Source: Verrucomicrobiia bacterium (GTDB lineage Bacteria > Verrucomicrobiota > Verrucomicrobiia > Verrucomicrobiales > Akkermansiaceae). From it: 64,000 nucleotides of DNA. Positions 720-50,774 of the stretch are shown one piece after another. The stretch lies in NCBI GenBank assembly GCA_030432565.1, contig JAUIGV010000017.1, positions 1 through 64,000 on the forward strand. Direction: 5' to 3'. Under the pieces are notes generated by a model. It was not told where the DNA came from and searched no databases. It worked only from the letters and a program-made list of their open reading frames with translations. Position 1 is the stretch's first letter; the number at the start of each line of letters is the position of its first letter. A program made the translations under genes and the position numbers.

Positions 720-2099
720 TTACTTTTTCTGCTCACGAAGTTCCGAGAATACCTCTCCGCTTGGGCCAGCGGGAAGGGATTTTTTCCAGTCCTCGATCAG
801 GCCCGACAAGCGGGCCACTTCTACTTTATGAGCATCCTTGAGATCGGTTTTCTCGTAGGGATCGGCGACGATGTTGTAGAGTTCTTGCTTCGAGTCGTCG
901 GAGTTGGTGACAAACTTCCATTTGTCGTGGACAACGGCGAAGGAGGCCCAGTGGGTTGTGCTTCTCTTGTTTGAGCCTGACTTCCAGAAGAGGGGCTTGG
1001 ATCGAAGACCACCATCCTTCGAGCCCTGCATCACTTCCAACTGGTTCACTCCGTCGGGTTGATAACCTTCAGGCAAGGTCACTCCGGCTACCGCACAGAA
1101 GGTAGGAAGAAGATCCACCGCTGAGATCATGGAACGTTTGTCGACTTTTCCGGCGGCAATTTGGCCGGGCCAACGAACAATGAAGGGGACGTTAATTCCT
1201 CCTTCGAAGAGTGAGGCCTTGTATCCCTTCCGGCCCGCCGTGATTCCTTTGGCGGCATTGATCCCCCAACCCGCTCCGGTCGCGGTGTCGTAGCTGAGTT
1301 TGAGTTCGCCAGCCTTGCTCGCGCGAGCCGGTCCGTTGTCGGAGCTAAAGATCACGAGAGTATTGTCCGCAATATCCAAGCGGTCGAGAGTCTCGAGAAC
1401 TTCGCCAATGCGGTCATCGGCATGAGAGAGAACGGAAGCATAAATCTGGTCGGGACGGCTCTCCATTTCGCGAAATCGCCACTCGTATTTTGGCACGGTA
1501 TGGAAGGGCGTGTGCGGTTCGTGAATCCAGAGGTTCACGAAGAAGGGCGTTCCAGCCGCAACAGATTTCTCAATGAAGTCAGTGGCATGCATGGCATCTT
1601 CGTGAACCGGCATTTGCTCTCCGGAGCAGTTGAAAGCGCCGTATTCGTCATATCCGTATTCAGCCGGGGTGGGTGAGTCTGGAATCATGTTATTGGCGAG
1701 GTGCCACTTGCCGAAATGGGCAGTCGCATAGCCCGCCTTTTGAAGCATCCGTGGAAGCATCGGAGCCTTGGTATCGAGCCAATCCGGCATACCCCGCTTG
1801 GCTTTGCTGGGGACCCATGCGAAGTGACCGTCGATGTTGTAGCGGGCGGGAAAGTGCCCCGTCAGGACCGCGGTGCGACTCGGCGAACAAACCCCGCTGG
1901 CGACGGTAAAGCGGTGGAAGTCGGTGCCCTCCTTGGCAAGTCGATCAATATTGGGTGTCCTAACGTAAGGATGTCCATGGCATCCGAGGTCACCCCAGCC
2001 CCAGTCGTCGGCAAAGATGAAAAGAATATTGGGACGCTCGCTTCCACGAATGAAACCGATACCGAAGATGAGAACGAGTAACGAAAGAAATAGTTTCAC
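720..2099 (-). CDS. Sulfatase (arylsulfatase family)
   Basis: Complete secreted sulfatase of about 459 residues. After a signal peptide (about 1-20) come the metal-binding Asp pair in FIFADDWGWGD, then GVCSPSRTAVLTG with the formylglycine-forming Cys71, FGKWHLA, and a C-terminal SSDNGPA stretch (second metal site). The frame has no ATG before the mature domain. Candidates are TTG at 2150, GTG at 2129 and GTG at 2099. I chose 2099 because it puts the signal peptide at the very N-terminus and places the catalytic Cys at residue 71, as in the neighbouring sulfatase. It is the first gene of a two-sulfatase unit; the second starts 12 bases after this stop. Activity needs a formylglycine-generating or anaerobic sulfatase-maturating enzyme, which is not seen in the window. 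Confidence 0.93.
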   Translation of the reverse strand: MKLFLSLLVLIFGIGFIRGSERPNILFIFADDWGWGDLGCHGHPYVRTPNIDRLAKEGTDFHRFTVASGVCSPSRTAVLTGHFPARYNIDGHFAWVPSKAKRGMPDWLDTKAPMLPRMLQKAGYATAHFGKWHLANNMIPDSPTPAEYGYDEYGAFNCSGEQMPVHEDAMHATDFIEKSVAAGTPFFVNLWIHEPHTPFHTVPKYEWRFREMESRPDQIYASVLSHADDRIGEVLETLDRLDIADNTLVIFSSDNGPARASKAGELKLSYDTATGAGWGINAAKGITAGRKGYKASLFEGGINVPFIVRWPGQIAAGKVDKRSMISAVDLLPTFCAVAGVTLPEGYQPDGVNQLEVMQGSKDGGLRSKPLFWKSGSNKRSTTHWASFAVVHDKWKFVTNSDDSKQELYNIVADPYEKTDLKDAHKVEVARLSGLIEDWKKSLPAGPSGEVFSELREQKK

Positions 2100-2405
2100 G
2101 ATATGAGCTGTTTGAAAGAGTAGCTTCACGCATCGTCGAACACTTGCCAATCGAAATGCTCATCTCCCGTAAAACAGCTTTACCGAACCAGACCAAGCCT
2201 ATTCCTCCCACCAATGATTGACCGCTCCCACGGACCTGCAAGGGCTGCCTTTTCAAAACTACTCTTCGCCACTGAAGACGAGCTCCTCAGGCGTGATGAA
2301 AATCAGACAGCTTTGCGATCATTCCTACAAAGAAGAACCCGTCCAACATCGGCTGAACGGGCTTCTTAAAGAGTGACACCTCAGGATTCCTCCCGCGTGT
2401 TAAAA
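2100..2405. other. Gene-free stretch with one terminator-like hairpin
   Basis: About 300 bases between the sulfatase start and the small membrane protein stop. It should hold the sulfatase promoter, but I cannot pick out convincing -35/-10 boxes. The only structured element I see is the hairpin at 2333-2367. The short open frames here look like shadows. Confidence 0.5.
2333..2367 (-). terminator. Possible terminator of the small membrane protein gene
   Basis: Inverted repeat with arms AAGAA+CCCGT and ACGGG+TTCTT, one bulged base and a loop of about 14 bases, lying 3' of the minus-strand gene that ends at 2406. The minus-strand run after the hairpin (CTTTGTAGG) is only weakly T-rich, so this is a modest call. 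Confidence 0.45.
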
Positions 2406-3049: not shown

Positions 3050-5758
3050 CTAGATCGCGTCCGAGCAGCGCTGACAGAGGTCATCCTTGGCAACTGGCTC
3101 ATACTTGCGGCAGCGGGGACACATTGGGTGCCCGGTGTGGGCTACGGTGGCGGCGAGGGTTTCGCCTTCGACCACCTTCAGCTCGGAGACGATGAAGAAT
3201 TCGGTCGCGAAGTCGTGATCCTTGAGGAGTTCCAGGCAGGAGTGATTCGCGGGAACAGTAAGTGTCACACTCGCTTCGTTGTTCTTTTTGAACTCCTTGG
3301 CCTGGACTTTTTCCTCGATCGCGGTCTGCATGACCCCCCGGATTTCGATGAGCTTGGCGACTTGTTCCGTCGCTTCGCTTCCGGCGAATTTTGGATTCAC
3401 TTCCGGGAAGGTCTGCTCGTGGATTGAACCTTCGCGCCCTGCGTGTTCCCAGGCTTCCTCACTGGTGTAGGCGAGGATGGGAGCGAGGAGTTTGACCACG
3501 GCATCGAAGATTTCCCCAATGCACCAGACGCTCGCCAGACGGCGCTCGCTGTCGGCGGAGTCGCAATAGAGACGGTCCTTGGTAATGTCGATGTAGTAAG
3601 CGCTCAGATCGCTGGCCGCAAACTTGTTTACAGTTGAGAAGACACTACGAAAGTCAAATCGCGCATATGCCTCTTTGATCTCGGCAATAACGACCTGCAG
3701 CCGCTCCATGATCCAGCGGTCAATGAGCGGGAGAATTTCCGGCTCGCTGACCTTCTCGTCGCGCATGTTGCCGAGCAGGATTTTAAACGTGTTTCTGAGC
3801 TGGCGGTAGGGCTGGCCAACCTGCGTGAAAAGATCTTCACCAAAGGGCACCTCATTTTGCCAATCTACCGAGGAAACCCAAAGACGGAGAATATCGGCAC
3901 CATACTTGTTGTAAAAGTGTGCGGCATCGGTTGGCTTGCCCTTTTTCTTGGCAGCCGATTTGGAAATTTTTCCGCCATCTTTATCGACCACGAAGCCGTG
4001 AGTAAGAACCGTCTTGTAAGGGGCCTTGTCACGCACTCCAACACTTAGCATGAGCGAGCTTTGAAACCAACCACGGTGCTGGTCGGTCGCTTCGAGATAG
4101 AGATCGGCCGGGCAGCTGAGTTCGGGATGGGCATCGAGAACGGCAACGTGCGAGGAACCGGAATCGATCCAGACATCGAGAGTGTCGCGACACTTCGTGG
4201 AGCCTTCGGGCAGGCCAAAAAGCGTGGCGAGTTCGGAATCGGATTTCTCGAACCACACGTTGGTGCCTTCCTTCTCAACGAGATCGGCAACCTTCCTGGC
4301 AAGGTCGGCCGATACGATGGGCGCACCATCCCGATCAAAGAAGACGGGAAGCGGAACGCCCCAAGTACGTTGACGCGAGATACACCAGTCGGGACGAGCC
4401 TCGACAGTGCCATAGATCCGGTTGCGACCCCACTTTGGCAGCCACTCGACTTCGTCGATTTCGCTGAGCGCTTTCTCGCGGAGTTGATCGATCGAGATGA
4501 AGAACTGCTCAACTGCGCGGAAGATGATGGGCGTTTTGGAACGCCAGCAATGCGGGTAGCTGTGCTCGTAGGTTTCTTCGCCGAGGAGCGCACCTTTTTC
4601 TGTAAGAATCTCGACGATACGGGCATTGGCCTTGAAAACGTGCATTCCAACCAATTCAGGGAGACCGCACTCGTCGGTATAGAGACCATCGTCATCAACC
4701 GGGCTTAGAACCGAAAATCCATTTTGCTGGCCAATCGAATAATCATCCGCTCCGTGACCGGGCGCAATATGAACGGCGCCGGTTCCCGCATCGGTGGTGA
4801 CAAATGGAGCGAGAATCACTTTGGAAGTACGGTCGAGGAATGGATGCTGTGCTTCCAGACCCTCGAGTTCCACTCCTTTGATTTCGCCCAATTCCTCCTC
4901 GAGCGTGAGGCCGGTCTTTTCCTGAAATTCACCCAGCAGATCACGCACCACGATAATCGTGTCCCCGTTCGAATATTTACCAATGGTGTAAGTAAAGCGC
5001 TCATGCACCGCGATGCCGAGGTTGGCGGGAAGAGTCCACGGGGTGGTCGTCCAGATCGCGATCGAGGTTCCGGCGGGCAGCGCATCGTGCAGGGGAAGAT
5101 CGAATTTCACGAAAACCGCCGTCGACTTCTTGTCCTGATACTCGACCTCAGCTTCCGCTAACGCGGTCTTGGCACCGTAGGACCACTGGACCGGCTTCTT
5201 GGACTGATAGACACAGCCCTTTTCAATCAACGCCGCAAAGGTGCGGATGATGTTGGCTTCGTAACCGGGATCGAGAGTGAGGTAAGGATAATCCCAGTCT
5301 CCAAAAACGCCGAGGCGCTTGAAGGACTCGCGCTGGGTATCGATCCAACCACGAGCGAAGGTTTCGCAACGGCGGCGGATTTCCGCAGGCTCGACGTCGC
5401 GCGCATCTTCGTCCTGCATCACCTTGAATTCGATGGGAAGTCCGTGGCAATCCCAGCCCGGAATGTAGGGAGCTTCAAAGCCGGCCATCGACTTTGACTT
5501 CACCACGAAATCCTTAAGAACCTTGTTCAAACCGGTTCCCATGTGCACGTCTCCATTCGCAAATGGCGGACCATCGTGAAGAATGAAGCGCGGGGCGTTT
5601 TCAGCCTTCCGCTTGGCAATAATTCGCGCGTAGAGACCTTCGGAGTTCCACTTTTCGAGGCGTTCCGGCTCACGCACCGTCAAGTTTCCCTTCATGGGGA
5701 AATCTGTCTGGGGCAGAAACAGGGTGTCTTTATAGGATTTTCCTTCTGGAGTGCTCAT
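3050..5758 (-). CDS. ileS: Isoleucine--tRNA ligase
   Basis: Class I aminoacyl-tRNA synthetase charging tRNA-Ile, cytoplasmic and essential. It has 902 residues, normal for bacterial IleRS. The HIGH motif is present as HMGT (residues 72-75) within GPPFANGDVHMGTGLNK, and the KMSKS loop as KISKS (597-601). The editing (CP1) domain lies between them, with the WTTTPWTLPAN signature. A C-terminal zinc knuckle has Cys880, 883, 895 and 898. The start is the ATG at 5758. I see no T-box-like leader. The short acyl-carrier-like gene follows 25 bases after the stop. Confidence 0.98.
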   Translation of the reverse strand: MSTPEGKSYKDTLFLPQTDFPMKGNLTVREPERLEKWNSEGLYARIIAKRKAENAPRFILHDGPPFANGDVHMGTGLNKVLKDFVVKSKSMAGFEAPYIPGWDCHGLPIEFKVMQDEDARDVEPAEIRRRCETFARGWIDTQRESFKRLGVFGDWDYPYLTLDPGYEANIIRTFAALIEKGCVYQSKKPVQWSYGAKTALAEAEVEYQDKKSTAVFVKFDLPLHDALPAGTSIAIWTTTPWTLPANLGIAVHERFTYTIGKYSNGDTIIVVRDLLGEFQEKTGLTLEEELGEIKGVELEGLEAQHPFLDRTSKVILAPFVTTDAGTGAVHIAPGHGADDYSIGQQNGFSVLSPVDDDGLYTDECGLPELVGMHVFKANARIVEILTEKGALLGEETYEHSYPHCWRSKTPIIFRAVEQFFISIDQLREKALSEIDEVEWLPKWGRNRIYGTVEARPDWCISRQRTWGVPLPVFFDRDGAPIVSADLARKVADLVEKEGTNVWFEKSDSELATLFGLPEGSTKCRDTLDVWIDSGSSHVAVLDAHPELSCPADLYLEATDQHRGWFQSSLMLSVGVRDKAPYKTVLTHGFVVDKDGGKISKSAAKKKGKPTDAAHFYNKYGADILRLWVSSVDWQNEVPFGEDLFTQVGQPYRQLRNTFKILLGNMRDEKVSEPEILPLIDRWIMERLQVVIAEIKEAYARFDFRSVFSTVNKFAASDLSAYYIDITKDRLYCDSADSERRLASVWCIGEIFDAVVKLLAPILAYTSEEAWEHAGREGSIHEQTFPEVNPKFAGSEATEQVAKLIEIRGVMQTAIEEKVQAKEFKKNNEASVTLTVPANHSCLELLKDHDFATEFFIVSELKVVEGETLAATVAHTGHPMCPRCRKYEPVAKDDLCQRCSDAI

Positions 5759-5854
5759 AGCGCTAGGGGCGGGACGCTAGGCAGTTGGGGGAAAAAGGTC
5801 AAGGTCGAGACCATCGGGGAAATTTCCCGGCCGTTACAGCACCCGGATTTTATA

Positions 5855-7764: not shown

Positions 7765-9195
7765 TTAGAGCACCCAGGTGTCCTTCGACCCTCCGCCTTG
7801 CGAGGAATTCACAACCAATGATCCCTTGTTCAAAGCCACTCTCGTAAGTCCGCCGGGAATAATTTCAATATCCTCGCCATACAAAACATAGGGTCGCAAA
7901 TCAACGTGCCGCCCTTCGATTCCCTCACCGCAAACCGTCGGATGTCGCGAAAGCGAAACCACAGGTTGGGCCACGAAATCCCTTGGATTCGCTTTGATCT
8001 TTGCCGCGAATTCCTCCCGCTCCTTCTTGCTCGAAGTCGGACCCATCAACATCCCGTATCCACCGGATTCGTTCGCAGATTTCACCACGAGCTCCTTCAG
8101 ATTCCCGAGAATATGCTGACGGTCTTTTTCGCGCCAAGCCAGATAGGTCGGCACGTTCTCCAGGATCGGATCCTGGTCGAGGTAGTACTTGATCATGTCC
8201 GGCACGTAAGCGTAGGTCACCTTGTCATCGGCCACTCCGGTTCCAACCGCATTGGCGAGCACCACGTTTCCTTTCAAATACGCATCCATGATCCCTGGAA
8301 CTCCAAGAAGCGAATCCTTACGGAAAGCCAGCGGATCGATAAAGTCATCATCGATTCGACGGTAAATGACATCCACCTGCACCAACCCGCTTGTCGTGCG
8401 CATGTAGACGTAACCATCGCTCGCGATAAGATCCCGGCCCTCAACGATTTCAATCCCCATCGCCCTGGCAAGGAAGGAATGCTCAAAATAAGCACTATTG
8501 TAGATTCCCGGTGTCAGCAGAACCGCGACCGGAACACCCGTCTGCCGGGGCGAGAGATGCTCCAGAGTCTTGCGAAGCAACGAAGGATAATTAGCAACCG
8601 GACGCACGCCCAGTGATTGATAAAGCTTCGGGAAAGCACGCTTCATGGCCTCACGATTCTCCAGCACATAGGAGGCTCCCGACGGGCAACGTCCATTATC
8701 CTCCAGCACGAGATACTTCCCCTGGTCATCTCGAATCAAGTCACTTCCGCAAATGTGCATGTAGATATCCCGGGGCACCTCGAAACCCTCCATCAAGGGA
8801 GAGTAATGCGCTGCCGTCTTCACCACATCCTCCGGAATCACCCCGTCCTTGATGATTTTGGCATCGTGATAAATGTCATTCAAAAAAAGATTCAGCGCGA
8901 TAATTCGCTGCGTCAGCCCGTCTTCGATGACCTGCCACTCGTCGGCCGGAATCACACGGGGAATCAAATCAAAGGGGAAAATGCGTTCCGTCCCCTGATT
9001 GTTTTCGCCGTAAACCGTAAAAGTTACCCCCTGCTCAAGAAATGCGGATTCGGTTTGAGCCCTTTTTTCAAGGAATTTTTCGCGCGTGAACCCGCCGATC
9101 ACTTCCTCGACCTGCCGATAGTGCGGGAAGGCTGGACCACCTTCCTTTGGGAACATTTCATCAAAAAAGCCGTCGGTCTGGTAATCTTGGAACAT
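7765..9195 (-). CDS. Circularly permuted ATP-grasp protein (type 2)
   Basis: 476-residue protein of the COG2308 (DUF404/DUF407) family, a circularly permuted ATP-grasp predicted to form amide or peptide bonds using ATP. Typical features are the N-terminal [27 protein letters not shown] (about 70-90), [29 protein letters not shown] (about 148-176), and later [15 protein letters not shown], which resembles a nucleotide-binding loop. The ATG at 9195 opens a minus-strand set with alpha-E and transglutaminase. The gene faces away from the large transglutaminase-DUF2126 gene at 9261 across a 65-base promoter gap. Comparative genomics of this gene set points to a peptide-tagging or small-peptide pathway; that is inference from the family. 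Confidence 0.95.
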
Positions 9196-9260
9196 TGTAT
9201 TGCTAACAGACTACAAAGCTCACGGATCAGGTCACCTCTCATTATTCATTAATTATTTTC
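9196..9260. promoter_or_regulatory. Divergent promoter region of the transglutaminase/ATP-grasp cluster
   Basis: 65 bases between the ATG at 9195 (minus) and the ATG at 9261 (plus). The right side is very AT-rich (TTATTCATTAATTATTTTC). Both transcripts must start here or inside the flanking genes, so a shared regulator is plausible. I cannot define -35/-10 boxes reliably. Confidence 0.5.
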
Positions 9261-12200
9261 ATGGAGAACTTGCATGAAAGTGTGATTACCATGGCCCTCA
9301 TGGGAATTCGAGTCGCACTCAATCATCGCACTGCTTACAAATACGACCGTCGCGTTACGATGTCTCCGCACATCATCCGTCTCCGCCCTGCTGTTCACTC
9401 GCGCACGCCTATCGAGTCCTACTCGCTCAAAATCACCCCGGAGCCTCACTTCCTCAACTGGCAGCAGGACGCTTTCGGCAACTTTCTTGCCCGCGTCGCC
9501 TTTCCGGATAAAACCGATGAATTTTCGTTTGAAGTCGATCTCATCGCCAGTCTCGATATTTACAACCCCTTCGATTTCTTCGTCGACGACGAAGCCGAGC
9601 ATTACCCCATCGACTACACCGAGTCCCAGCGCGAGGAACTCCTTCCCTACTTCAAAACCCGTGACGACGGCCCTCTCCTCAAGGAATTCCTGGATACCAT
9701 CGACCGGGATCAAAAAAAGATCGTCGATTTCCTCGTCTATATTAACCGGCTCATCGAAGCCCACATCGACTACAGCGTCCGCATGGAGCCAGGCGTGCAA
9801 ACTTGCGAGGAAACCCTCGAAAAGAAGGTCGGTTCCTGCCGCGACTCCGCCTACCTCCTCGTCCAGGTCTGCCGGCACCTCGGCCTCGCCGCCCGTTTCG
9901 TCTCCGGCTACCTCGTCCAACTTACCGCCGACCAGGAATCCCTCGATGGACCTTCGGGAACGACCGAAGATTTTACCGACCTTCACGCCTGGGTTGAAGT
10001 CTATATCCCCGGAGCCGGCTGGGTCGGACTCGATCCCACCTCGGGACTCCTCGCCGGCGAAGGCCACATTCCGCTGGCCTGCACTCCCGAACCCGCCAGC
10101 GCGGCCCCGGTCGTCGGTGGCCTTGAGGACTGCGAGGTCGAAGATTTTCAATTCTCGAACACCGTCCGCCGACTCCGCGAAGATCCCCGCGTCACCAAAC
10201 CCTACACTGCCGAGGAATGGGAAGCAATCGACGCCCTGGGCGGCCAGGTCGACACCGACCTGCAAAAATACGACGTTCGCCTGACAATGGGTGGAGAGCC
10301 CACCTTCATTTCCATCGACAACATGGACGGCGACGAGTGGAACACCACCGCCGACAGCCCGCAAAAAAGAAAACTCTCGCGCAACCTTCTGAATCGCCTT
10401 CAGCGAACCTACGCGCCCCAGGGTCTCCGTTACTACGGCGAAGGAAAATGGTATCCCGGCGAACCACTTCCCCGCTGGTCCTATGATCTCATTTGGCGCA
10501 AGGACGGAAAGCCAATTTGGCACGACCAAAAATGGCTCGGCGAACCCACTGGAAAAGGTTCGGTCACCCCGAAACTGGCCAAGAAATTCGCCCGCACCCT
10601 CGCCCGCGCTCTCGCGGTCGATGACGAATGCGTCCGCACCGCCTACGAGGACAAATACTACTATCTCTGGTATGAAGGCCAGCTCCCCAAACACATCGAC
10701 ACCTCCAAGGCCAACCTCAAGGATCCACTCGAGCGACAATACCTCGCCAACATCCTCTCAAAGGGCATGGACGAACCCATCGGCTACGTCCTCCCTCTCA
10801 AATGGAATTATGCCAAGGATAGCTGGACCACCGTCCGCTGGGAATTCCGCCGCGATGAACTCTACCTTACTCCCGGCGGCTCCGCCCTTGGCCTCCGCCT
10901 CCCCCTTTCATCTCTCAAAGACGATACCGGAGAAGAACCCGAAGAAGTGATCCTTCCCCGTTCTCCGCTGGAACCCGCCCCGCCCCTTCCCGATTTCCCT
11001 CAAAAGAAGTACGAAACACCACAGACCAAGGAACGCCTCCGCGTTGCCCCTTCCAAGGTCATCACGGCTGTAAGTGTTGAAATTCGCGACGGCGAACTCT
11101 ACGTGTTCTTCCCGCCACTCGATGATGCCGCGCATTACCTCGCGCTCGTCAACGCCGTCGAAACCACCGCCGCTCACCTGGAAACCCCCGTCATTATCGA
11201 AGGCTACGAGGCTCCTTATGACATTCGCCTTGAGCGGATCAAGGTCACTCCGGACCCAGGTGTGATCGAGGTGAACGTCCACCCCACCCAAACCTGGCCA
11301 CAACTTAAATCACTGATCACCGGGCTCTACGAAGACGCCCGCCAGACCCGCCTTGGCACCGAAAAATTTATGGTCGATGGACGCCACACTGGAACGGGAG
11401 GTGGCAACCACGTCACCATGGGAGGTATCACTCCTGCTGACTCTCCCTTCCTTCGACGCCCCGGACTGCTCCGTAGCTTCATCACCTTCTGGCAGCACCA
11501 CCCCGGCCTTTCCTACCTCTTCTCGGGCACCTTCATCGGGCCGACCAGCCAGGCTCCACGAGTCGACGAAGGTCGCTCCGACCGACTCTACGAACTGGAA
11601 ATCGCCTTCCAGCAACTTCCCGAATCCTCCGACCTCCCGTGGATCGTCGACCGGGTCCTGCGAAACCTCCTCACCGATCTCACCGGCAACACCCACCGCG
11701 CCGAGTTCTGTATTGATAAACTCTACTCGCCCGACTCCGCCACCGGTCGACTCGGCATCGTCGAACTCCGCGCCTTTGAAATGCCACCGCACGCCCAGAT
11801 GAGCCTCGTGCAAATGCTCCTTATGCGAACCTTTGTGGCCATGTTCTGGAACACCCCTTACACCGGACGCCTGGTCCGTTGGGACACGGAGCTCCACGAC
11901 CGATTCCTGCTGCCACACTACGTTCGCGAGGACCTCAAGGACGTTGTCGAAACCCTCCAAGACCAAGGCTATCCCTTCCAACTCGATTGGCTCGATGCCT
12001 TCTTTGAATTCCGATTCCCGGTCTTCGGTCGCGTCCAATACGGAACCATCGGCGTCGAACTTCGCATGGCCCTGGAGCCGTGGAATGTTCTCGGCGAGGA
12101 ATCCTCCTCCACTGGTACCGCCCGCTATGTCGACTCGTCCATCGAGCGGCTTCAAGTCACCGTCACCGGCCTCACCGAAGGACGCCACATTCTCACCTGC

Positions 12201-41906: not shown

Positions 41907-44606
41907 ATGAAGAGTCTCCCATTCTTCTTTCTGCTCCTCGGCTTTTCCAGCGCCTTCGGCCAAATTTTGATCGGACCTTCACGGGAACTCACAAACTACA
42001 GCTTCCTGCCCAGCGAAACGACAGCTGTTGATCTTGATCTGGATGGAGATCTTGATGTCATCACCCGCGAACAATACTTTGGATGGATTCATTGGTATCT
42101 TAATGACGGTAGCGGAAATTTTTCAAAGGGAGGGGAATGGGCGCCCCCCATTGACATGAATCGAGACAACTGGAACACCCTCGGCTATTTCGACTATGAC
42201 GGTGACGGCTATCTCGACATCCTTGGTTTGCTTAAATTGGAGAACGAAAACACCCAGTCCATCTGCTTGGCCCGCGGCTTGGAGGGAGCTACTTTTGAGA
42301 AAGACTTTACCAGAATTTTTGCCAGAGAATACGATTCCACAAGTTGGAATGATGAGCTCGAGCCAATCGACTTTCCGCTTCAAGATTTTAATCGTGACGG
42401 CAGAAAAGACATCTTGTTTGAAAATCACATCGTCTTTCTCAGAGACTATCCTTTAGTGGCTACCGAGACAAACGCTGATTTTTCCAGTGTTTACGGGTGG
42501 AACGGAAATATTCCATTCGTTGACTGGAACAACGATGGATTGCCAGATCTAGTCAATGAGCGGCTTGGTGTACGACTCAACCAAGGACGCGGTCGTTTCT
42601 CAGAGGAACAAATCATTGACCTTCCATCGTTGGGAGATGGTTCTATCGACAGAAGGGATCTCGGTCCGATCAGGCGGACCAGCGGAGATGGCCCATTGGA
42701 GTTTTGCCTGAGCTACGAAATGGATGATGTGGACTACGTGTCCATCATCACAAAGAACTCTGATGATTCGGTTTCTATTTCCGCGACTTCCAAACTGAAT
42801 GACCTCCTCCCTCCCGCTAGCATCGGAGGCTGGTCCTACGGCGTAAGAGGCGATCGTGTGGTCATCGTGAGCTTTGATCAAAGGCAACGACCAGAAATCG
42901 ATGCTTACGAACTAATTTGGGATGGCACAGCGCTGACGACAGCCCCCATTATCACTAAAATTCCTTCCTATACCTTTGGAGGGCAGGGCTTGATAAGCGA
43001 AGATCTTAATGGCGATGGCACTTTAGATCTCATCGTCACCACACATGGCCCGGATAGGGTCAACGATGGTGCAACAGATGAAATATTTTGGCTTCAAGAC
43101 TCTGTGGGAGGCCCATACGAGACCATTCGGAATCCCATCACAGAACCGTCCTATTCGCAGACCGTGATCGGAGCGTCCGATATCGATGATGATGGGATGA
43201 TCGATCTCCTTACATACGAAACAAGAAGAGGTTCCCAAAGGCCGGGGAGCCTTGCTCTTTGGAAAAACTCGAATGAGGGGGAAGCATTTAACAAGTCATA
43301 CCTCCCTGGAAAAAACTCAGTGTTAAGGCTTCTAAAAACCATCGAAACCGATGCCTCACTGGCTGCGCTTGGTGGTGAATTTGCCAGCCATGATTGGCCA
43401 CTTGGAAAACCAGGCTTTCTGGTCGCCCGCAACATCCAGCCCGAGTCACCGGATGGAAGTTATCAATCGGCGATCAGCTATCTCCTCCAAGATCAGACAG
43501 GGCAATTTACGGCGGTGGATCAGTTCACCTTCAATGGCAACTGGTTGGGGACGAACTTTTTTTACCAGGATCTCAATAATGACGGAATCAAGGATCTCCT
43601 GTATTCCCTCAATCGGAACCAGCTCGACGCCGAATCTGGCGGCAGTGGTATTTTTGTGCAATTCGGCGATGGCAATTCATTTGGCCCGAGCACTCTCCTC
43701 GTCAATCTTAAACATGCCACCTTGGCTGCCCCGCCGGTCGATTTTGATGGAGACGGAGATCTCGACCTTCAAATCCTTCAAATCACCCCACCTCTCCCAA
43801 GAGTAACGTTCGAGTATTCCTGGGCAGAAAACGAGTCCTGGAAGTTCGAAACTCTTAATCCGCTGGATGATTATAACGATTTGATTTTCGAACCTTATTC
43901 AGAAGACGCGGTCACAATGCTCGACCTGGATGACAACGGTGACCTCGACCAGGTCTTCTGGATACCAACCGACAGGGTCTCGGGATTTAACCGCCTGAGT
44001 TGGAAGGAAACGAAGAACCCCGACCAACCGGTCCCGGAAGAAATTGCCTATCTCGAAAGGCTCTTCGCAGAGTCTTTCGCATTTCCGAGATGGGCCCTCC
44101 GGGATTCGCATCTCCTCGCGGATCTCGATAATGATGGCGTCAAAGATCTGGTCGTCGGATCCAAATTTTTTTCCCGGCTCGAATGGTTTAAAATCACCAA
44201 GGCCACCCAACCACCCGCCTACACAGCTTGGGCAACCTCAAAAGGTGTCACCGGTCACTCGGCCTCTCTCCTCGCTGACTGGGATGGCGATTCATGGACG
44301 AACTGGGAAGAGTTCGCCTTCGGATCAGATCCAAATCAAATAGACCCAAACCATCCGGGAAGACCCCAAATATCAGTCAAGGAGGCCGGACCGACCCTGA
44401 CTTTTAGCAGGAGACGAGACGCCGCAAACGACGGAATCATTTATCAACACATTCAAAGCACCAACCTTCGCTCCTGGGCATCTTGGATCCCAGCTGAAGC
44501 TCATCTGGCTCCAATCGATGAAGGCTATGAAAAGGTCTCGATCCCGCTGGATCGGCCACGGGGATTCTTTCGTGTCCAGCCCATGCTGCCCGCAGGAGAT
44601 CAGTAG
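41907..44606 (+). CDS. Secreted FG-GAP/VCBS beta-propeller protein
   Basis: 899 residues with a signal peptide (about 1-18) and at least ten Ca-binding DxDxDG-type loops: DLDLDGDLDVI, DYDGDGYLDIL, DFNRDGRKDIL, DWNNDGLPDLV, DLNGDGTLDLIV, DIDDDGMIDLL, DLNNDGIKDLL, DFDGDGDLDL, DLDNDGVKDLV and DWDGDSWTNWEEFAFG. These belong to FG-GAP/VCBS propeller blades. The C-terminal part, ending GFFRVQP, carries the module shared with other secreted proteins in the window. Probably cell-surface; ligand unknown. It is convergent with the acetylesterase (15-base gap). Confidence 0.9.
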   Translation: MKSLPFFFLLLGFSSAFGQILIGPSRELTNYSFLPSETTAVDLDLDGDLDVITREQYFGWIHWYLNDGSGNFSKGGEWAPPIDMNRDNWNTLGYFDYDGDGYLDILGLLKLENENTQSICLARGLEGATFEKDFTRIFAREYDSTSWNDELEPIDFPLQDFNRDGRKDILFENHIVFLRDYPLVATETNADFSSVYGWNGNIPFVDWNNDGLPDLVNERLGVRLNQGRGRFSEEQIIDLPSLGDGSIDRRDLGPIRRTSGDGPLEFCLSYEMDDVDYVSIITKNSDDSVSISATSKLNDLLPPASIGGWSYGVRGDRVVIVSFDQRQRPEIDAYELIWDGTALTTAPIITKIPSYTFGGQGLISEDLNGDGTLDLIVTTHGPDRVNDGATDEIFWLQDSVGGPYETIRNPITEPSYSQTVIGASDIDDDGMIDLLTYETRRGSQRPGSLALWKNSNEGEAFNKSYLPGKNSVLRLLKTIETDASLAALGGEFASHDWPLGKPGFLVARNIQPESPDGSYQSAISYLLQDQTGQFTAVDQFTFNGNWLGTNFFYQDLNNDGIKDLLYSLNRNQLDAESGGSGIFVQFGDGNSFGPSTLLVNLKHATLAAPPVDFDGDGDLDLQILQITPPLPRVTFEYSWAENESWKFETLNPLDDYNDLIFEPYSEDAVTMLDLDDNGDLDQVFWIPTDRVSGFNRLSWKETKNPDQPVPEEIAYLERLFAESFAFPRWALRDSHLLADLDNDGVKDLVVGSKFFSRLEWFKITKATQPPAYTAWATSKGVTGHSASLLADWDGDSWTNWEEFAFGSDPNQIDPNHPGRPQISVKEAGPTLTFSRRRDAANDGIIYQHIQSTNLRSWASWIPAEAHLAPIDEGYEKVSIPLDRPRGFFRVQPMLPAGDQ

Positions 44607-44621
44607 GAAATGGTGCGCCCC

Positions 44622-46586
44622 CTACTTCCCGGCTTTCGCTTTCTCGAGTTCCTTCCTCTTGGACTCTTCCCAGGCTTTTTTGTCCTTTAAGAATCTCTCC
44701 TTAAGATTGGCCAAAGTCGCTTCGGCTTCCTGAATTTGTCGCTCGGTGTCTCCCAGCTCGAGCTCCTTACGGACCTTACCGTTGAGCTGACGCCGATAGC
44801 TGTTGACGTCGGCTCCTTCTGGAATTGGAAAGGACACCGGAATCTCCTCCTGCCGCCAGTCGTCACTCCGCTGAGTCGCCAGCGGGATTTGACGTGCGCT
44901 CGTCAGGTTGGACATCGGGTTACGTGCCCAGGCATAGCGGTAGTGTTCCGGTTCGGCGACGTGCGGGCTGCTCAAAACGAGGATGTTCCGCTTCACCCGG
45001 GGACGATTGCGGTTGTCCACCCCGTCCGTGCCATAATCGATCACCGCCGGATAAAATCGACGATCTTTCCCCGCGATTGCAAAGCCCAGCATCCTGCCAT
45101 CGCTGTCATCTTTCGTCCGGATCTCCGTCGACATCATCAAAGTCATTTTTCCGTCTTCCTTCTTCACCTCCCGAATCGTAGGCGGCAGCCAGAACTCATC
45201 ATTCAAGACTCCATATTGAGTCGCCATGGCCCACTTCGCGGCACGCTCGCCAACCGGCACTTTGATCTGGGGATGATACCAACTCTTACGAAAATCGTAC
45301 GAACTCGCAAAGCCAATCGTCTTGTCACCGGCCTTCTGAAAATCGAGGAAGGTTTGATATTGCGCTTCTCTTATTCCGGGACCGGCATCGTTCATGGGTT
45401 TAAGAAAATTCTCCTCCGTCTGCGGTTCGCCGGCCGAACACAACGAAATGATGCAGAACGGCAATTCAGGATCATTGAAAGCCGCACGCCATGAGGTGAT
45501 CATCTTTCCGAAGACCTGGTAATACATTCTCGCTCCCGCCGAACCGGCAAAACAATTGTTGTATCCCTGATGAAAAACCGCGCCTTTCACCGAGAGGCCC
45601 TCCATTGGCGAAATCATCCCCGCATAACAATATCCCGGACGATTGTGATCGGCCTTCGGCCCCGGTCGCAAATCCGATGGCGGCTTGCTGTCCGCAGGCA
45701 AGGGCTTGCCGTCCTTCTCCGCCTTTTCTTTCTTACGTTCAAAATTTTTGATGCGCCCTTCAAGATCGGCCTTGGCATCGTAGGCCGCAATCTTCTCATT
45801 CCACTCCGCAAGCTTCGCCTGCGTCTCTTCCCCCTTGATTTGCTTCATGACATCCTCCGGCGTCCACGACTCAACCGTGGTTCCACCACGGGAAGCATCG
45901 ATCAAGCCAATGGGAACCTCGGAGGCCTTGTGAACACGGCGCCCGAAAACATAACCGATGGCCGAGAATTCCTTCACAGTTTCCGGCGTGCAAACCTCCC
46001 AATATCCTTTGCGAAAGTGACGGCTGGACCAGCTGCTGTATTCGTAAAGACCCTCGAAGCTCTTCACCGCTTCAAATCCTTTTCCCTGCGGAACAGTCAG
46101 CAATCGGATCTCCGGATAATTCGCCGAAGCAATCTCCATTGCTCCGTCATCCACCTTTGCCAACTCAAATTCCATATTACTCTGACCTCCCAACACCCAG
46201 ACATCGCCCACAAGAATATTCTCCAAGGTGATGGTCTTATCCTTACCTTTGGCAACCAGGTTCTGCGGATCCCTGCTGGCCGGCTTGGCCATCAACGTCG
46301 CCGCCCAGGCGCCCTTTTGATCAGCAACAGTCAAAAGTGATTCACCCCGAAAGAAGATCGTCACCTTCTCCCCCGGAGCAGCCCAACCCCAGATCCTAAC
46401 AGGCTTGTCCCGCTGCAAAACCATGTTGCTTTGGAAGGCATTGCTCAAACTGAGCCCCTCACCAATGGCGGGAACCTCCACCACGTTTTCACGCGGCATT
46501 TTTTGAGCGGAAAGCAAACCTCCCGACACGATCGTCAGCGAGACACATAGGATTGGGAAAAAACGATTCTTCATTGGTGGATTCAT
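44622..46586 (-). CDS. Sialate O-acetylesterase (SASA family)
   Basis: About 654 residues. A signal peptide (about 5-25) is followed by the SGNH/SASA esterase fold: LVGDVWVLGGQSNMEFEL gives the nucleophile Ser, and VGLIDASRGGTTVESW (as PIGLIDASRGG) and KGAVFHQGYNN match the family. It removes acetyl groups from sialic acid or other sugars. A charged C-terminal helix (about 590-654, DTERQIQEAEATLANLKERF) looks like a coiled coil and is an addition. ATGs at 46586 and 46574 both fit; the frame opens further upstream at 46646. Confidence 0.9.
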   Translation of the reverse strand: MNPPMKNRFFPILCVSLTIVSGGLLSAQKMPRENVVEVPAIGEGLSLSNAFQSNMVLQRDKPVRIWGWAAPGEKVTIFFRGESLLTVADQKGAWAATLMAKPASRDPQNLVAKGKDKTITLENILVGDVWVLGGQSNMEFELAKVDDGAMEIASANYPEIRLLTVPQGKGFEAVKSFEGLYEYSSWSSRHFRKGYWEVCTPETVKEFSAIGYVFGRRVHKASEVPIGLIDASRGGTTVESWTPEDVMKQIKGEETQAKLAEWNEKIAAYDAKADLEGRIKNFERKKEKAEKDGKPLPADSKPPSDLRPGPKADHNRPGYCYAGMISPMEGLSVKGAVFHQGYNNCFAGSAGARMYYQVFGKMITSWRAAFNDPELPFCIISLCSAGEPQTEENFLKPMNDAGPGIREAQYQTFLDFQKAGDKTIGFASSYDFRKSWYHPQIKVPVGERAAKWAMATQYGVLNDEFWLPPTIREVKKEDGKMTLMMSTEIRTKDDSDGRMLGFAIAGKDRRFYPAVIDYGTDGVDNRNRPRVKRNILVLSSPHVAEPEHYRYAWARNPMSNLTSARQIPLATQRSDDWRQEEIPVSFPIPEGADVNSYRRQLNGKVRKELELGDTERQIQEAEATLANLKERFLKDKKAWEESKRKELEKAKAGK

Positions 46587-46856
46587 GGACTTAAGAAAGA
46601 AGTGAGCCCGTTGGAAAGTACAACTCCCCCAACGACCTACCCGCAAATGAGTATTTCAGGCTTCTGGCTTCACTGAAAGCTCACCGACGATTTGGACCAA
46701 CCGGGTTTCCCTGAGGGGTCGTCTGCAAAATGCCAAACGACACCTTGGTCATCCGGGAAAACAATTCCGGCCGTACTCCGGCGGACCCACAATCATAAAG
46801 AAGATCGAAACTGAGCGATTCAGCCTCATTCGTTCCGGAGGACTACCGGGATCCTT

Positions 46857-47285
46857 CTACATAGCAAGCTGCGTGACATTGATCAGCACAAGATAACGAC
46901 CGGCTTTCCCCACAAAGGTCAGAATCCAAAATAAGGTGAAGTTGACCCTCATCACTCCGGCCAAAAAGGTAAGGGCATCTCCGCCAACCGGAGCCCATGC
47001 CAGAAGAAGGGACCAGACTCCATACTTTTGAAACCACTCCTGCGCGCGGGAAAGTTTACCAACCTTAAAAGGAAACCATCTTCGGTCCTGATATCCTTCA
47101 AGATAACGGCCAAGGACCCAATTCGCAGCCGAACCGAGGGTATTCCCAAGCGACGCAACCAGCCATATCCAAACCCATTCTTCGGGGCGGTCAACCACCA
47201 TGCTGACGACAATCACTTCTGAGTAAAAGGGAAGAATCGTCGCAGCAAGGAAAGCCGCTCCAAACATGAGGAGATAGGCTGTCAT
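46857..47285 (-). CDS. YqaA/DedA-like membrane protein
   Basis: 142 residues with four or five membrane segments. ILPFYSEVIVV, ASLGNTLGSAANWVLGRYL and QKYGVWSLLLAWAPVGGDALTFLAGVMRV match the YqaA branch of the DedA/SNARE-associated superfamily (a flippase-like small membrane protein). Its ATG overlaps the C26 stop by 4 bases, so it is translationally coupled to the hydrolase, which is an unusual partnership. Role inferred only: envelope lipid or export. Confidence 0.88.
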   Translation of the reverse strand: MTAYLLMFGAAFLAATILPFYSEVIVVSMVVDRPEEWVWIWLVASLGNTLGSAANWVLGRYLEGYQDRRWFPFKVGKLSRAQEWFQKYGVWSLLLAWAPVGGDALTFLAGVMRVNFTLFWILTFVGKAGRYLVLINVTQLAM

Positions 47286-47992
47286 TCCTCACCCTCGGGG
47301 ATCAAGGTTTCAGCAACGCTGCCTCGTGCACGACGCACCAGCTCCGTAAAAATATTTCGCTGCCTCTTCACATAAAACAGATATTCAGGATGCCATTGCA
47401 CCCCGACAAGCCAAGGATGGGAACTTGCTTCGATGGCCTGAACAAAAGAATCCAAATCCCTCGCGACCACACGGGCTCCTTCTCCAAGGCGGTCGATTGC
47501 CTGATGGTGAAGACTGTTGATCCGCCACCGGTCGCAATCCATGGCCTCTCGAAGATGACCATCTGATTCAGCTACAGCAGTCTTTCTTGGCAAAAGAGTG
47601 CGTCGATTCGAAGTGCGTTTTCGGAGCGGACGGATACTCGGGAAAAGAGATCCCCCGAGCACGACATTGATCAGCTGGGCACCCCGGCAGATTCCAAGAA
47701 TCGGAAGGTGCGTATCGAGAGCATGTTGAATCATCTCAATTTCAAATTGATCCCGCTTCCGGTCAATTCGGCTGTGACCGCTGCTCTCTCCGTCGTACAA
47801 GTCCGCATCAATGTCACTGCCCCCGCCGATGATAACAGCCTTGAAGCGTTCCTTTTCGTGACTTCGGAAATTTGACGGAGTAAGTCGAACAGCCTTGCCA
47901 CCGGCAACAAAGACTGAAAAACGTGTCGCCCACCACGCAATCGGGAAACGGCCATCCGAACCAGTGACAGCTATGAGTGGACGTTCAGCCAT
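47282..47992 (-). CDS. Class I glutamine-amidotransferase-like hydrolase (peptidase C26)
   Basis: 236 residues of the PuuD/gamma-glutamyl hydrolase type. Nucleophile Cys102 in LGICRGAQ, His201 and Glu203 in VQWHPE, and GGGSDIDADLY are visible. It should cleave gamma-glutamyl amide bonds. The ATG at 47992 follows AAGGAGGATGTGAAACA, a good ribosome-binding site; the ATG at 48013 is an alternative. Its start overlaps the amidoligase 3' end by 22 bases. A ligase and a matching hydrolase in one transcript suggest a glutamyl-amide that is made and then broken. Confidence 0.92.
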   Translation of the reverse strand: MAERPLIAVTGSDGRFPIAWWATRFSVFVAGGKAVRLTPSNFRSHEKERFKAVIIGGGSDIDADLYDGESSGHSRIDRKRDQFEIEMIQHALDTHLPILGICRGAQLINVVLGGSLFPSIRPLRKRTSNRRTLLPRKTAVAESDGHLREAMDCDRWRINSLHHQAIDRLGEGARVVARDLDSFVQAIEASSHPWLVGVQWHPEYLFYVKRQRNIFTELVRRARGSVAETLIPEGEE

Positions 47993-49011
47993 TGTTTCAC
48001 ATCCTCCTTCCAAGAATGGTATTCCGAAGAAAAATACCCTCCCGCACGACTTCGGCGATAAGCTTCACAGACGACTTTAAGCCGATGCGGATCTTCCGCA
48101 AGGGATTCGACCTCCTGCCAGTCATTCCAACTACACCAAATGCCCCAAGCGGGATTATCAATATCACTGTTGGGCAAGCGGTAGTGCAGGGTCGGGCGCT
48201 TGCGGATCTTCTCCTTGGGTAAAGATTCCACGACCTTCGACTCATCGAGAAACGCAAACATGGGGAGCATATCGAGTATCCGGTTCCGGCTCGGGTTATG
48301 CTCAAGATAATCATCAATCAATTGACCCAGCGATGGTGAGTAATTCTCCGCTAAAATCAAATCTTCGTATGCGCCGGCATAGCTGCGAATAAACGGGGAG
48401 AACTTTCTGCTGTAGACAATGTCCTCCCTGTCCTCCAGCCAAGCCTGCAGACAAACAAACGCCCTCAGATAGGTTAGGATCGTCCCGGCTTCCAGATCCG
48501 GAAGTTCGAGATTCAGGTGCAGACCAAACGCGGCAAACAAAGCCTGTCGGCTGCCATTGGCTCCGCGGCTCCGCAGGGCATCCACGATCCAATCCAATTC
48601 ACCAAGGCGGGCAAATGGCAAGGGAGGTGAGATCACTTCACAGGGAATTAGATTCCTCATCAAGGCCTGAATCGTATCAGCCGCAAGGTGCTCAAATTCA
48701 CGCATCCAGTCCCCGCCCTCCTCGGAATCATCCCGGTGAAGCTTTTGCAGATATTCGAAGTCCAAATCCACCTTGAAATCCCCCAGCACCGTCCCCTCCA
48801 CCCTAAATTCGTAATCCGAAATTCGATCAATGGTTCCCCCGTAGTGGGCCACCAACTGGGCTGCGATCACCGGCAGTTCGACCCCCGACATCTCGATCTC
48901 CACCCCGATACGGCGGGGTGAACCGTCTAGGCCACTCAACCGGCCAGGCATCCGGTAGCAAGGTCGATCGGGCTGGCCGGAATTGCGTTCGTGGGAATCA
49001 CTTGCGGACAT
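47971..49011 (-). CDS. Putative amidoligase (glutamine-synthetase/GCS fold)
   Basis: 346 residues. The signature RRIGVEIEMSG (residues 33-43) with Glu38 and Glu40 is the metal/nucleotide-binding strand of the amidoligase_2 (GCS-related) family, and FGLHLNLELPDLE and a Trp-rich tail (WGIWCSWNDWQEV) also fit. It is predicted to use ATP to join an amine to a carboxylate, for example a gamma-glutamyl amide. No signal peptide; it is cytoplasmic. The frame is open to 49227 but the ATG at 49011 begins the domain-like part. It leads the operon with the C26 hydrolase and YqaA-like gene. The family was described in computational work; the substrate is unknown. Confidence 0.85.
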   Translation of the reverse strand: MSASDSHERNSGQPDRPCYRMPGRLSGLDGSPRRIGVEIEMSGVELPVIAAQLVAHYGGTIDRISDYEFRVEGTVLGDFKVDLDFEYLQKLHRDDSEEGGDWMREFEHLAADTIQALMRNLIPCEVISPPLPFARLGELDWIVDALRSRGANGSRQALFAAFGLHLNLELPDLEAGTILTYLRAFVCLQAWLEDREDIVYSRKFSPFIRSYAGAYEDLILAENYSPSLGQLIDDYLEHNPSRNRILDMLPMFAFLDESKVVESLPKEKIRKRPTLHYRLPNSDIDNPAWGIWCSWNDWQEVESLAEDPHRLKVVCEAYRRSRAGGYFSSEYHSWKEDVKQWLNVHS

Positions 49012-49273: not shown

Positions 49274-49978
49274 ATGAAAGGCCTCCTTCTTCTTTCCCTA
49301 TTTTGCGTAAGCATTCAGTTTGCGACGGCCTGGTCACCGGTCTCTCCCTACCAGCATGTCGTTTCGAGGGGTTCGTTCTTTTTCGTCATGCTTCCCACCC
49401 AGTATGAGAAAAAGGACGGCAAGTTCGTCGAATCCGACGGCCCAAGCGGAACGTCCTATCGCGTGACGTGGAAGGGTAAGATTAAGAAAATGTGGTCGAT
49501 CAAAAGCTTCTACGCCTTTCCCGGAGACATTCACCTCTCATCGGATGGCAAATCGGTCGCCCTCTTCCGTAACCAATTCCTGGGACAAGACGGAACTTTC
49601 TTTAACGACCCTGATTCAAATTCAGTTTTAAGGATTTACCGCAAAGGGAAGTTGGTCGCTGACTTCGAAGCGAAAGACCTGATGACCGACTTGAAAAAGG
49701 GCATCGTCCCAACGCTCTTTGGAATTCAATACGGCTGGCAAAATCAGGACCTTCACAGAACACAACTCGGCCCCAGCAGAAAACACTTCGTCACCACCGA
49801 AACCGAAGGACGGCCTGGAATGATCGAACACCCCGACGTCCTCCAGTTCGCCACCTTCGAACGTATCCTTTTCCTCATTGATTCAAAAACCGGAGTGGTC
49901 GTCTCGCGGAATCCGATTCCGAAAGAACAAAAGGAAGAAGAAATAACGGATTCCAGCATCGATCCGTTCGCCGAGTAA
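49274..49978 (+). CDS. Secreted hypothetical protein, 234 residues
   Basis: Signal peptide (about 1-19, LLLLSLFCVSIQFATA). The rest, with SFFFVMLPTQYEK, FPGDIHLSSDGKSVALFRN and VLRIYRKGKLVADFEAKDL, looks like a small beta-propeller-type or DPP-like fragment, but no family is clear. It ends in ITDSSIDPFAE. It has a GAGGGAC before the ATG, so the start looks right. It is divergent from the amidoligase operon. Confidence 0.65.
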   Translation: MKGLLLLSLFCVSIQFATAWSPVSPYQHVVSRGSFFFVMLPTQYEKKDGKFVESDGPSGTSYRVTWKGKIKKMWSIKSFYAFPGDIHLSSDGKSVALFRNQFLGQDGTFFNDPDSNSVLRIYRKGKLVADFEAKDLMTDLKKGIVPTLFGIQYGWQNQDLHRTQLGPSRKHFVTTETEGRPGMIEHPDVLQFATFERILFLIDSKTGVVVSRNPIPKEQKEEEITDSSIDPFAE

Positions 49979-50081: not shown

Positions 50082-50774
50082 TCATGGAGCTGCCTCAGAA
50101 TCCCGGGAATCTTCCCGGTGCGGGATCAGTGTTGCGATGAAGATCGCCAAATAAAGGGTGCCGCAAATGGCTTCGAGTGCAGAAAGGATACGAGTGAACG
50201 GAGTAGTCGCAGTGATGTCTCCATAGCCGAGCGTGGTCATAGTCACAAAGCTGAAGTAAAGAAGAGCTCCATTTTCATCGGTCGCCCGCTCGCCGCCGCT
50301 GGTGACAAAGGAGCCGGCTCCACTCAAGTGGCAGATGGCATAAAGATTGGCCCAAAGCATTCCCAAAATGAGGTATCCACAAATCCCCGCCAGCAGCTTA
50401 TCGGTTTGATCGCTCGTCTTACTTTTGAGGGAAAATCGCACCACGGTGACAAGCATCAGCGCTTGCAGCAGAAGGACCAACCAACGGGAAGCGAGAAGGA
50501 GGACGACATTATCCGGTATCATTTCCGAAAGGACGCCCAGCAAAACCATGGGGACACAAAGACCACCAAATAGCTTCAACCAAAAGCGGCTGCTGGCGAG
50601 CAGAAATCCTCCGAGACAAAACACTCCCAAATAAGACGACCAAAGAATGCCCGAGATCCATGGGTCGCCGGTGGCCGATTGACTCCCACTAATTATAATG
50701 AGAGCCAGAAGCGTGACCAGCAGGACCAAAGATCTCAGGCGAAACCATTTCTGAAAAAGAGGAAACGCTGACAT
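50082..50774 (-). CDS. Two-pore-type potassium channel-like protein
   Basis: 230 residues with about five or six hydrophobic segments. The selectivity filter is TTLGYGD (residues 180-186), the K+ channel signature, followed by a last helix (LYLAIFIATLIP). The N-terminal helices have no voltage-sensor Arg ladder that I can see. It starts 6 bases after the RND pump stop, so it is the fourth cistron of the efflux operon, an unexpected place for an ion channel. Confidence 0.88.
   Translation of the reverse strand: MSAFPLFQKWFRLRSLVLLVTLLALIIISGSQSATGDPWISGILWSSYLGVFCLGGFLLASSRFWLKLFGGLCVPMVLLGVLSEMIPDNVVLLLASRWLVLLLQALMLVTVVRFSLKSKTSDQTDKLLAGICGYLILGMLWANLYAICHLSGAGSFVTSGGERATDENGALLYFSFVTMTTLGYGDITATTPFTRILSALEAICGTLYLAIFIATLIPHREDSRDSEAAP

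Follow-up and report, generated by a model that had tools for sequence, protein, structure and literature searches.

Why would a bacterium keep an enzyme predicted to make an amide bond and an enzyme predicted to break one in overlapping genes, and why would a membrane protein be encoded directly behind them? This question is raised by an operon at positions 46,857 to 49,011 of a 64,000-nucleotide stretch from a Verrucomicrobiia bacterium (GenBank assembly GCA_030432565.1, contig JAUIGV010000017.1, positions 1 to 64,000), which we call the window. The operon encodes an amidoligase (AL), a Peptidase C26 protein (C26) and a YqaA-type membrane protein with a VTT domain (VTT). Our analysis points to a gamma-glutamyl-amide cycle that is complete in itself and has a membrane partner, a reading to which we give a probability of about one half. 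Within it, AL probably forms a gamma-glutamyl amide, which C26 cleaves; this make-and-break core is well supported by gene context and is of a known kind.

Three overlapping genes and the two enzymes

47,971 to 49,011, minus strand: AL, from ATG at 49,011 to the stop at 47,971, 346 amino acids; Amidoligase_2, predicted ATP-dependent amide ligase of the glutamine synthetase (GS) fold
47,282 to 47,992, minus strand: C26, from ATG at 47,992 to the stop at 47,282, 236 amino acids; Peptidase C26 / class-I glutamine-amidotransferase fold, predicted gamma-glutamyl-amide hydrolase
46,857 to 47,285, minus strand: VTT, from ATG at 47,285 to the stop at 46,857, 142 amino acids; YqaA-type DedA/VTT membrane protein
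47,971 to 47,992, minus strand: overlap of the AL end and the C26 start, 22 nucleotides
47,282 to 47,285, minus strand: overlap of the C26 end and the VTT start, 4 nucleotides (ATGA)

The coordinates and family calls that the first-pass annotation had given for the three genes proved correct against Pfam and the reading frames. A GGAGG stretch precedes the C26 start. When each gene is compared with those of the two nearest homologous operons, the identity is 76-87% at codon positions 1 and 2 and 37-44% at position 3; the sequences indicate that all three are real genes under purifying selection. The next open frame upstream of AL (49,274-49,978, without a Pfam match) is divergent, and therefore the operon probably begins at AL. 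As the source genome of 5.9 Mb holds only six C26-like and two VTT matches, a chance adjacency of the three genes is unlikely. The gene overlaps, together with a fusion of AL and C26 described below, make joint expression likely.

AL belongs to Amidoligase_2, scoring 195.9 bits against PF12224 (gathering cut-off 22) and covering positions 2-243 of the 245 in the profile; a sequence search of the PDB gave no credible relative. Its AlphaFold2 model, made with 46 sequences, has a mean predicted local distance difference test score (pLDDT) of 89.5 and a predicted template modeling score of 0.88. In VIA-align, which was a second look at the candidates from Foldseek, the 50 entries listed for this model were solely GS, gamma-glutamylmethylamide synthetases (GmaS), 1-naphthylamine synthetase (NpaA1) and glutamate-cysteine ligase (GCL), with Z 11.0-12.5 and a root-mean-square deviation of 3.1-4.8 over 190-241 residues. 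AL is thus predicted to have the fold of the GS catalytic domain and to fall within the GS superfamily, and by fold and family it would be a ligase. Eleven polar residues are invariant in the 46 sequences (E38, E40, D84, E125, N167, R202, R242, R244, R272, H276 and R278) and could be catalytic, including the E-x-E pair E38/E40.

C26 matches PF07722 with 144 bits (cut-off 20.5) and, at 55.7 bits, also the GATase family PF00117. The nucleophile C102 and the residues H201 and E203 that complete the triad, as well as N159, H162 and Q164, are invariant in all 39 aligned sequences (39 of 46 references, seven partial or divergent ones being excluded). The PF07722 score and the intact Cys-His-Glu triad place the protein in the Peptidase C26 family. 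Its best relatives in the PDB are 3fij (Lin1909), 7d4r (filed as a probable glutamine amidotransferase, which we take to be SpuA) and 6vtv (PuuD). It scores well under the cut-offs of two equivalog models, with 75.6 bits against PuuD (NF008471, cut-off 266) and 58.7 bits against gamma-glutamyl-CDP-amidate hydrolase (NF045546, cut-off 250); by these tests its substrate is therefore that of neither enzyme.

The predicted ligase-hydrolase pair across genomes

How constant is the pair? We scanned one genome per species and kept the best 80 of 221 AL relatives, which is a selection and not a random draw. Of these 80 loci, 75 have C26 after AL on the same strand (in one of the 75, L029, it is interrupted by the contig end), and in most of the 75 its start codon lies a few to about 50 nucleotides ahead of the AL stop. 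The remaining five are L056 and L090, where AL stands alone, L058, where AL carries a stop, L060, where a gamma-glutamyl cyclotransferase is found instead, and L087, where the contig ends. In an evenly drawn sample of 369 genomes from the class of the Marinobacterium genome, AL (at E 1e-30) is present in 18 genomes as 19 copies, 18 of which adjoin C26. The pair is near-universal within this AL clade. Moreover, a genome of the window's own class (G194, locus L106) has a single open frame of about 600 codons that is an in-frame AL-C26 fusion with both domains. The coupling of an amide-making with a gamma-glutamyl-amide-cleaving type of enzyme, which the first-pass annotation had proposed, is thus borne out by the adjacency counts.

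In the window's phylum 25 of 387 genomes contain PF12224, and of the loci that this search gave, the ones from G000, G155 and G194 alone score as this AL clade. On plasmids, 11 records carry AL, and C26 follows it in three of the seven that were viewed. In G706 the second AL copy (L234 / L195) has no C26 and clusters with the solo AL genes found on plasmids of Rhodovastum, Microvirga and Indioceanicola.

A second enzyme type that cleaves gamma-glutamyl compounds recurs beside AL. Of the 80 loci, eight have a cyclotransferase of the PF06094 type within about 6 kb of AL. Five of them carry it directly upstream (L035, L044, L060, L072, L081), L047 has it on the opposite strand, and in L042 and L082 it lies 2.7 kb and 5.6 kb away. 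Pfam scoring was applied to four of the eight proteins, all of which pass; the other four were identified by similarity to these. In L060 the cyclotransferase is present and C26 is absent. Six of these proteins start with a hydrophobic stretch, and the positive charge is higher before it than after it in five of the six; by the positive-inside rule the enzyme part is probably outside the membrane. The cyclotransferase and VTT occur together in none of the 80 loci. That two unrelated cleaving enzymes both recur at AL is the strongest evidence for a gamma-glutamyl amide as its product. Among more distant Amidoligase_2 loci of the window's phylum, L103, L105, L109 and L110 have adjacent cyclotransferase-like matches, which are weak where the score is printed (17-33 bits).

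Is such a pair known? The comparative genomics of amidoligases by Iyer et al. in 2009 reportedly described neighbourhoods with glutamine amidotransferase (GAT) and gamma-glutamyl cyclotransferase genes. Gamma-glutamylation of an amine by a GS-like enzyme takes place in the putrescine pathway of PuuA/PuuD. The closest precedent for AL-C26 would be AtdA1/AtdA2 and NpaA1/NpaA2, in which adjacent genes encode a GS-like gamma-glutamyl ligase and a GAT-like enzyme that, in the excerpted text, is said to reverse the ligation; NpaA2 is described there as likely to resemble AtdA2 and to hydrolyse the glutamylated amine (PMC11335346). The likeness lies in the pairing of a ligase with a GAT-like hydrolase, and the NpaA1 structure 8x6z is among the fold matches of AL. 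However, the ligase is longer there (487 amino acids in 8x6z), the pair feeds a dioxygenase, and the excerpts of that source mention neither a membrane partner nor a fusion (PMC11335346). A GS-like gamma-glutamylation of amines with a glutamine-amidotransferase-type gene in the cluster is also described, in the part of the source drawn on here, for the GlnA4 ethanolamine pathway of Streptomyces (PMC6529630). The Puu and GlnA4 systems resemble the window operon in this combination, the window C26 being kin to PuuD, but they have oxidising enzymes between their two steps, whereas none was noticed by eye as conserved at AL-C26. The window operon itself contains no oxidase or dehydrogenase gene, and none stood out as conserved in the list of gene clusters, inspected by eye; the rest of the genome was not searched for an unlinked oxidase. 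Finally, an amidoligase, a glutamine amidotransferase and a gamma-glutamyl cyclotransferase all figure in the gene set of Phage-ZRK32 (PMC10945688, in excerpt), so part of the amidoligase association is already in print. It differs from our case in that the excerpt mentions no YqaA/DedA partner and no AL-C26 fusion, and in that the window AL has no match in phage records. Pairs of a ligase and a hydrolase are known, as AtdA1/AtdA2 shows. Our literature search did not find amidoligase together with gamma-glutamyl-gamma-aminobutyrate hydrolase.

The YqaA-type partner

The third protein is a member of the VTT/DedA superfamily (PF09335, 62.4 bits, cut-off 33.9). We judge its YqaA type by the 37% identity to E. 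coli YqaA over 137 alignment columns, each protein having 142 amino acids, and not by a curated model. The AlphaFold2 model is all helical (pLDDT 86.3). The PDB gave no credible sequence relative, and the model had no structural match at E 0.001, a result that excludes nothing. Members of DedA have been proposed, in the portion of the source used, as undecaprenyl-phosphate translocases with conditional use by pH and sodium (PMC9876793). The window protein has the VTT domain in common with them but scores far under the cut-offs of the UptA models (33.5 against 300 and 19.5 against 250), and we therefore claim no cargo.

VTT is the next gene downstream in nine of the 80 selected loci (L014-L019, L025, L026 and L031), overlapping or within 15 nucleotides except in L025 (88 nucleotides) and L026 (324 nucleotides). 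In the class sample it adjoins seven of the 19 AL copies, including one truncated copy and the genome around which the sample was centred, and it lies about 2.3 kb from an eighth. The three genes stand side by side in Marinobacterium rhizophilum DSM 18822, Halochromatium glycolicum DSM 11080 and Rhabdochromatium marinum DSM 5261.

The association also holds at the level of whole genomes. In a search of 293 class genomes (the listed ones all lie within the 369), AL-type VTT was found in 19 at E 1e-40, of which 14 reach at least 180 bits, a limit picked after the list was seen. Ten of the 14 (ten of the 19) belong to the 18 AL genomes, and in G531, G605 and G706 an intact VTT and AL lie on different contigs. 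The one-sided Fisher p is 3.6e-11 for the 14 genomes and 2.9e-9 for the 19, in the worst case where the other eight AL genomes are all taken as among the 293 and without VTT, and with kinship not corrected for. The neighbours of unlinked AL-type VTT genes have nothing in common by eye. In Thiocapsa marina (L154 / L167, G448:C42) the VTT scores 207 bits, no AL lies in the 10 kb viewed and the AL-C26 pair is elsewhere. In the window's phylum, VTT matches at E 1e-20 are found in only two of 288 genomes, the source genome included.

The phylogenies agree with this picture. With midpoint rooting, the AL tree places the window and two other Verrucomicrobiota operons as sister to a Hahella operon (100/97), among proteobacterial sequences; the VTT tree recovers these four rows together (100/98). 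A quick tree with wider sampling has 79 rows, left after 30 near-copies or broken rows were removed from 109, and in it every locus with VTT or cyclotransferase falls in one 44-row group (SH-aLRT 83), with nine changes for VTT and all cyclotransferase loci within one 17-row part. Taken together, these trees suggest that the three genes moved as a unit, apparently between distant bacteria, and VTT may be old in the 44-row group and often lost. In the window's genus a strong AL match is found in two of 24 genomes and a weak match with stops in one. The congener G003 (L144, G003:C111:82000-91000) has no AL match; what it retains is part of C26 and a VTT interrupted by a stop codon, and the gene next downstream resembles the window gene at 44,622-46,646; in this, the one case seen, the unit decayed together.

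The three genes thus do co-occur: VTT adjoins the pair in nine of 80 and seven of 19 loci, ten of 14 class genomes with VTT carry AL, and with the agreeing trees the YqaA-type protein emerges as a recurrent, co-inherited partner of AL-C26. As far as literature searches go this real and recurrent partner appears to be undescribed, as had been supposed at first, amidoligase and DedA not being found together. Being optional beside AL, VTT is not needed for the basic chemistry.

E. coli YqaA shares the VTT domain, but its gene lies by gshA instead of AL: yqaA (L136 5013-5441, minus strand) is 72 nucleotides upstream of gshA, a gamma-glutamyl ligase gene, on the same strand, and in Salinivibrio (L174) a single gene separates a YqaA-type gene from gshA. 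A general link of YqaA with gshA was examined in 30 gshA loci, drawn from 56 gshA genomes among 143 searched; a YqaA-like gene lies within about 1.5 kb in just one, and the link is not used as support. The literature search did not find yqaA and gshA together.

Proposed cycle, rival explanations and neighbouring genes

In the proposed cycle AL would activate the gamma-carboxylate of glutamate, or of a close analogue, with ATP and join it to a cellular amine, as its fold, family and partners suggest. C26 would hydrolyse the same gamma-glutamyl amide and so reverse the reaction or unmask the product, in the way AtdA2 and probably NpaA2 act on gamma-glutamyl-arylamines; the intact triad, the kinship with PuuD and the cyclotransferase that joins or once replaces C26 argue for this step. 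Gene overlap and fusion would hold both enzymes at equal dose. As no other gene was noticed as conserved around the pair across lineages, the amine may be a common metabolite. A direct ligase-hydrolase cycle could serve amine storage, masking or detoxification, or be a switch on a membrane molecule. The YqaA-type protein, whose genomic and evolutionary link to the pair is described above, could link both reactions to the cytoplasmic membrane. The simplest way would be to carry the conjugate, or a lipid bearing it, across; this transport step we only infer.

One specific form of the cycle, a reversible change of a lipid head-group, we regard as speculative and very unlikely. AL would gamma-glutamylate a lipid amine (e.g. 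phosphatidylethanolamine) at the inner leaflet and turn it from zwitterionic to anionic, the YqaA-type protein would flip the lipid, and C26 in the cytoplasm or, in sister lineages, the N-anchored cyclotransferase would erase the mark. If it were true, YqaA proteins would gain their first cargo and Amidoligase_2 its first substrate, and the change would suit saline hosts. Even apart from this form, Amidoligase_2 and the short YqaA branch of DedA, for which no assigned substrate was found, are tied together and to a hydrolase family of known chemistry, so that two open functions become one question: which gamma-glutamyl amide is made, and where relative to the membrane.

A number of observations weigh against the cycle with its membrane partner. 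Foldseek alone places GS and GCL first, but weakly (best E 0.02; template modeling scores of 0.31-0.37 for the top two). Some AL genes are solo, namely those of L056, L090 and four of the seven viewed plasmid regions, where a profile also finds no C26. On the plasmid pSC52_3 (L124) an aldehyde dehydrogenase gene (4275-5804, plus strand) lies about 150 nucleotides upstream of AL-C26, which would fit an amine-oxidising, Puu-like degradation there rather than a closed cycle. The cyclotransferase is found within about 1.5 kb of none of the 19 class copies. VTT does not adjoin AL in 71 of the 80 selected loci and 12 of the 19 class copies, four of the 14 class genomes with VTT have no AL at E 1e-30, and E. 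coli yqaA has no AL beside it. Whole-genome searches for VTT covered 25 AL genomes, six of them chosen for a linked VTT; among the other 19 only Thiocapsa marina has an AL-type VTT of at least 200 bits, and it is unlinked.

In one rival reading C26 serves as the glutaminase of a two-part amidotransferase: the ammonia that it frees from glutamine lets AL amidate a carboxylate, without any later breakdown. Overlap and fusion are typical for synthetase/glutaminase pairs, and thus the gene overlap and the L106 fusion would fit, as would the GATase match, the filing of 7d4r and the AL fold, which is that of an ammonia-using enzyme. However, C26 scores better as a Peptidase C26 than as a GATase and is kin to PuuD, AL is also found solo, and some loci are shared by the unrelated cyclotransferase, which is no ammonia source and once occurs without C26. 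We therefore hold this explanation to be unlikely. A different doubt concerns VTT, which might be a housekeeping DedA gene that has come to lie beside a mobile AL-C26 pair, with no functional connection. Most AL loci are indeed without an adjoining VTT, and YqaA-type proteins occur away from AL both in AL genomes and in E. coli. Yet VTT adjoins the pair in Verrucomicrobiota and in several gammaproteobacterial families with agreeing trees, it co-occurs with AL at genome level even when unlinked (by the Fisher values above, with the same caveat on kinship), and it decayed jointly with the pair in G003, a single case. That VTT is a passenger is accordingly rather improbable.

We judge it about equally improbable that the product of the cycle is a soluble gamma-glutamyl osmolyte, made and removed under salt stress, with VTT as an envelope stress partner. 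Many of the 80 selected hosts are by name marine, halophilic or haloalkaliphilic/soda-lake organisms (by eye, uncounted), ectoine synthase is present in six of 18 AL genomes versus 47 of 351 without AL (p 0.03), and an ion channel, a BCCT transporter and an ectC-like gene lie near single AL loci. But the 80 loci are best matches and not a random draw, the excess of ectoine synthase weakens when the chosen centre genome is left out (five of 17, p 0.076), and the neighbours are sporadic, the ion channel being found in two of 88 loci. The link with salt or habitat is weak and suggestive only. Amidoligases of the GS fold also include protein ligases such as PafA, and so AL could tag a protein or peptide with glutamate or another amine, C26 or the cyclotransferase removing the tag. 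We consider this highly improbable: no conserved target gene, protease or tag peptide was noticed beside the pair in the cluster list, inspected by eye, and PuuD, the named relative of C26, acts on a small molecule.

Other origins and partners were examined and set aside. A phage or mobile-element origin was rejected, as no AL relative was confirmed in viral contigs and 50,697 phage records gave no match; in PHROGs C26 alone of the three proteins has a match, the best being phrog_7218, glutamine amidotransferase (72.4 bits). A role in defence was likewise dropped, PADLOC giving no match for AL, C26 or VTT. By eye, the clusters of open frames around AL loci consist of lineage-specific synteny, shadow frames and the cyclotransferase, although the clusters were not all checked singly. 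Upstream of AL the window also contains:

50,082 to 50,774, minus strand: ion channel gene (PF07885), about 1.1 kb upstream of AL

Thiomicrospira (L060) has an ion channel gene immediately after its AL. A potassium channel was rejected as a partner: when the 88 loci were searched for the selectivity-filter motif it turned up in three frames, two of them channels according to Pfam and the third apparently a chance hit. In Porticoccus (L045) a BCCT betaine/choline transporter gene (7871-9517, plus strand) comes after AL-C26. In L233 an ectoine-synthase-like gene (1789-2259, plus strand), the second copy of its genome, lies about 2.1 kb from the AL-C26 pair. Elsewhere in the window, ARAGORN places a tRNA-Trp at 42,483-42,559 (minus strand) within an opposite-strand frame of 899 codons (41,907-44,606); one of the two may be spurious.

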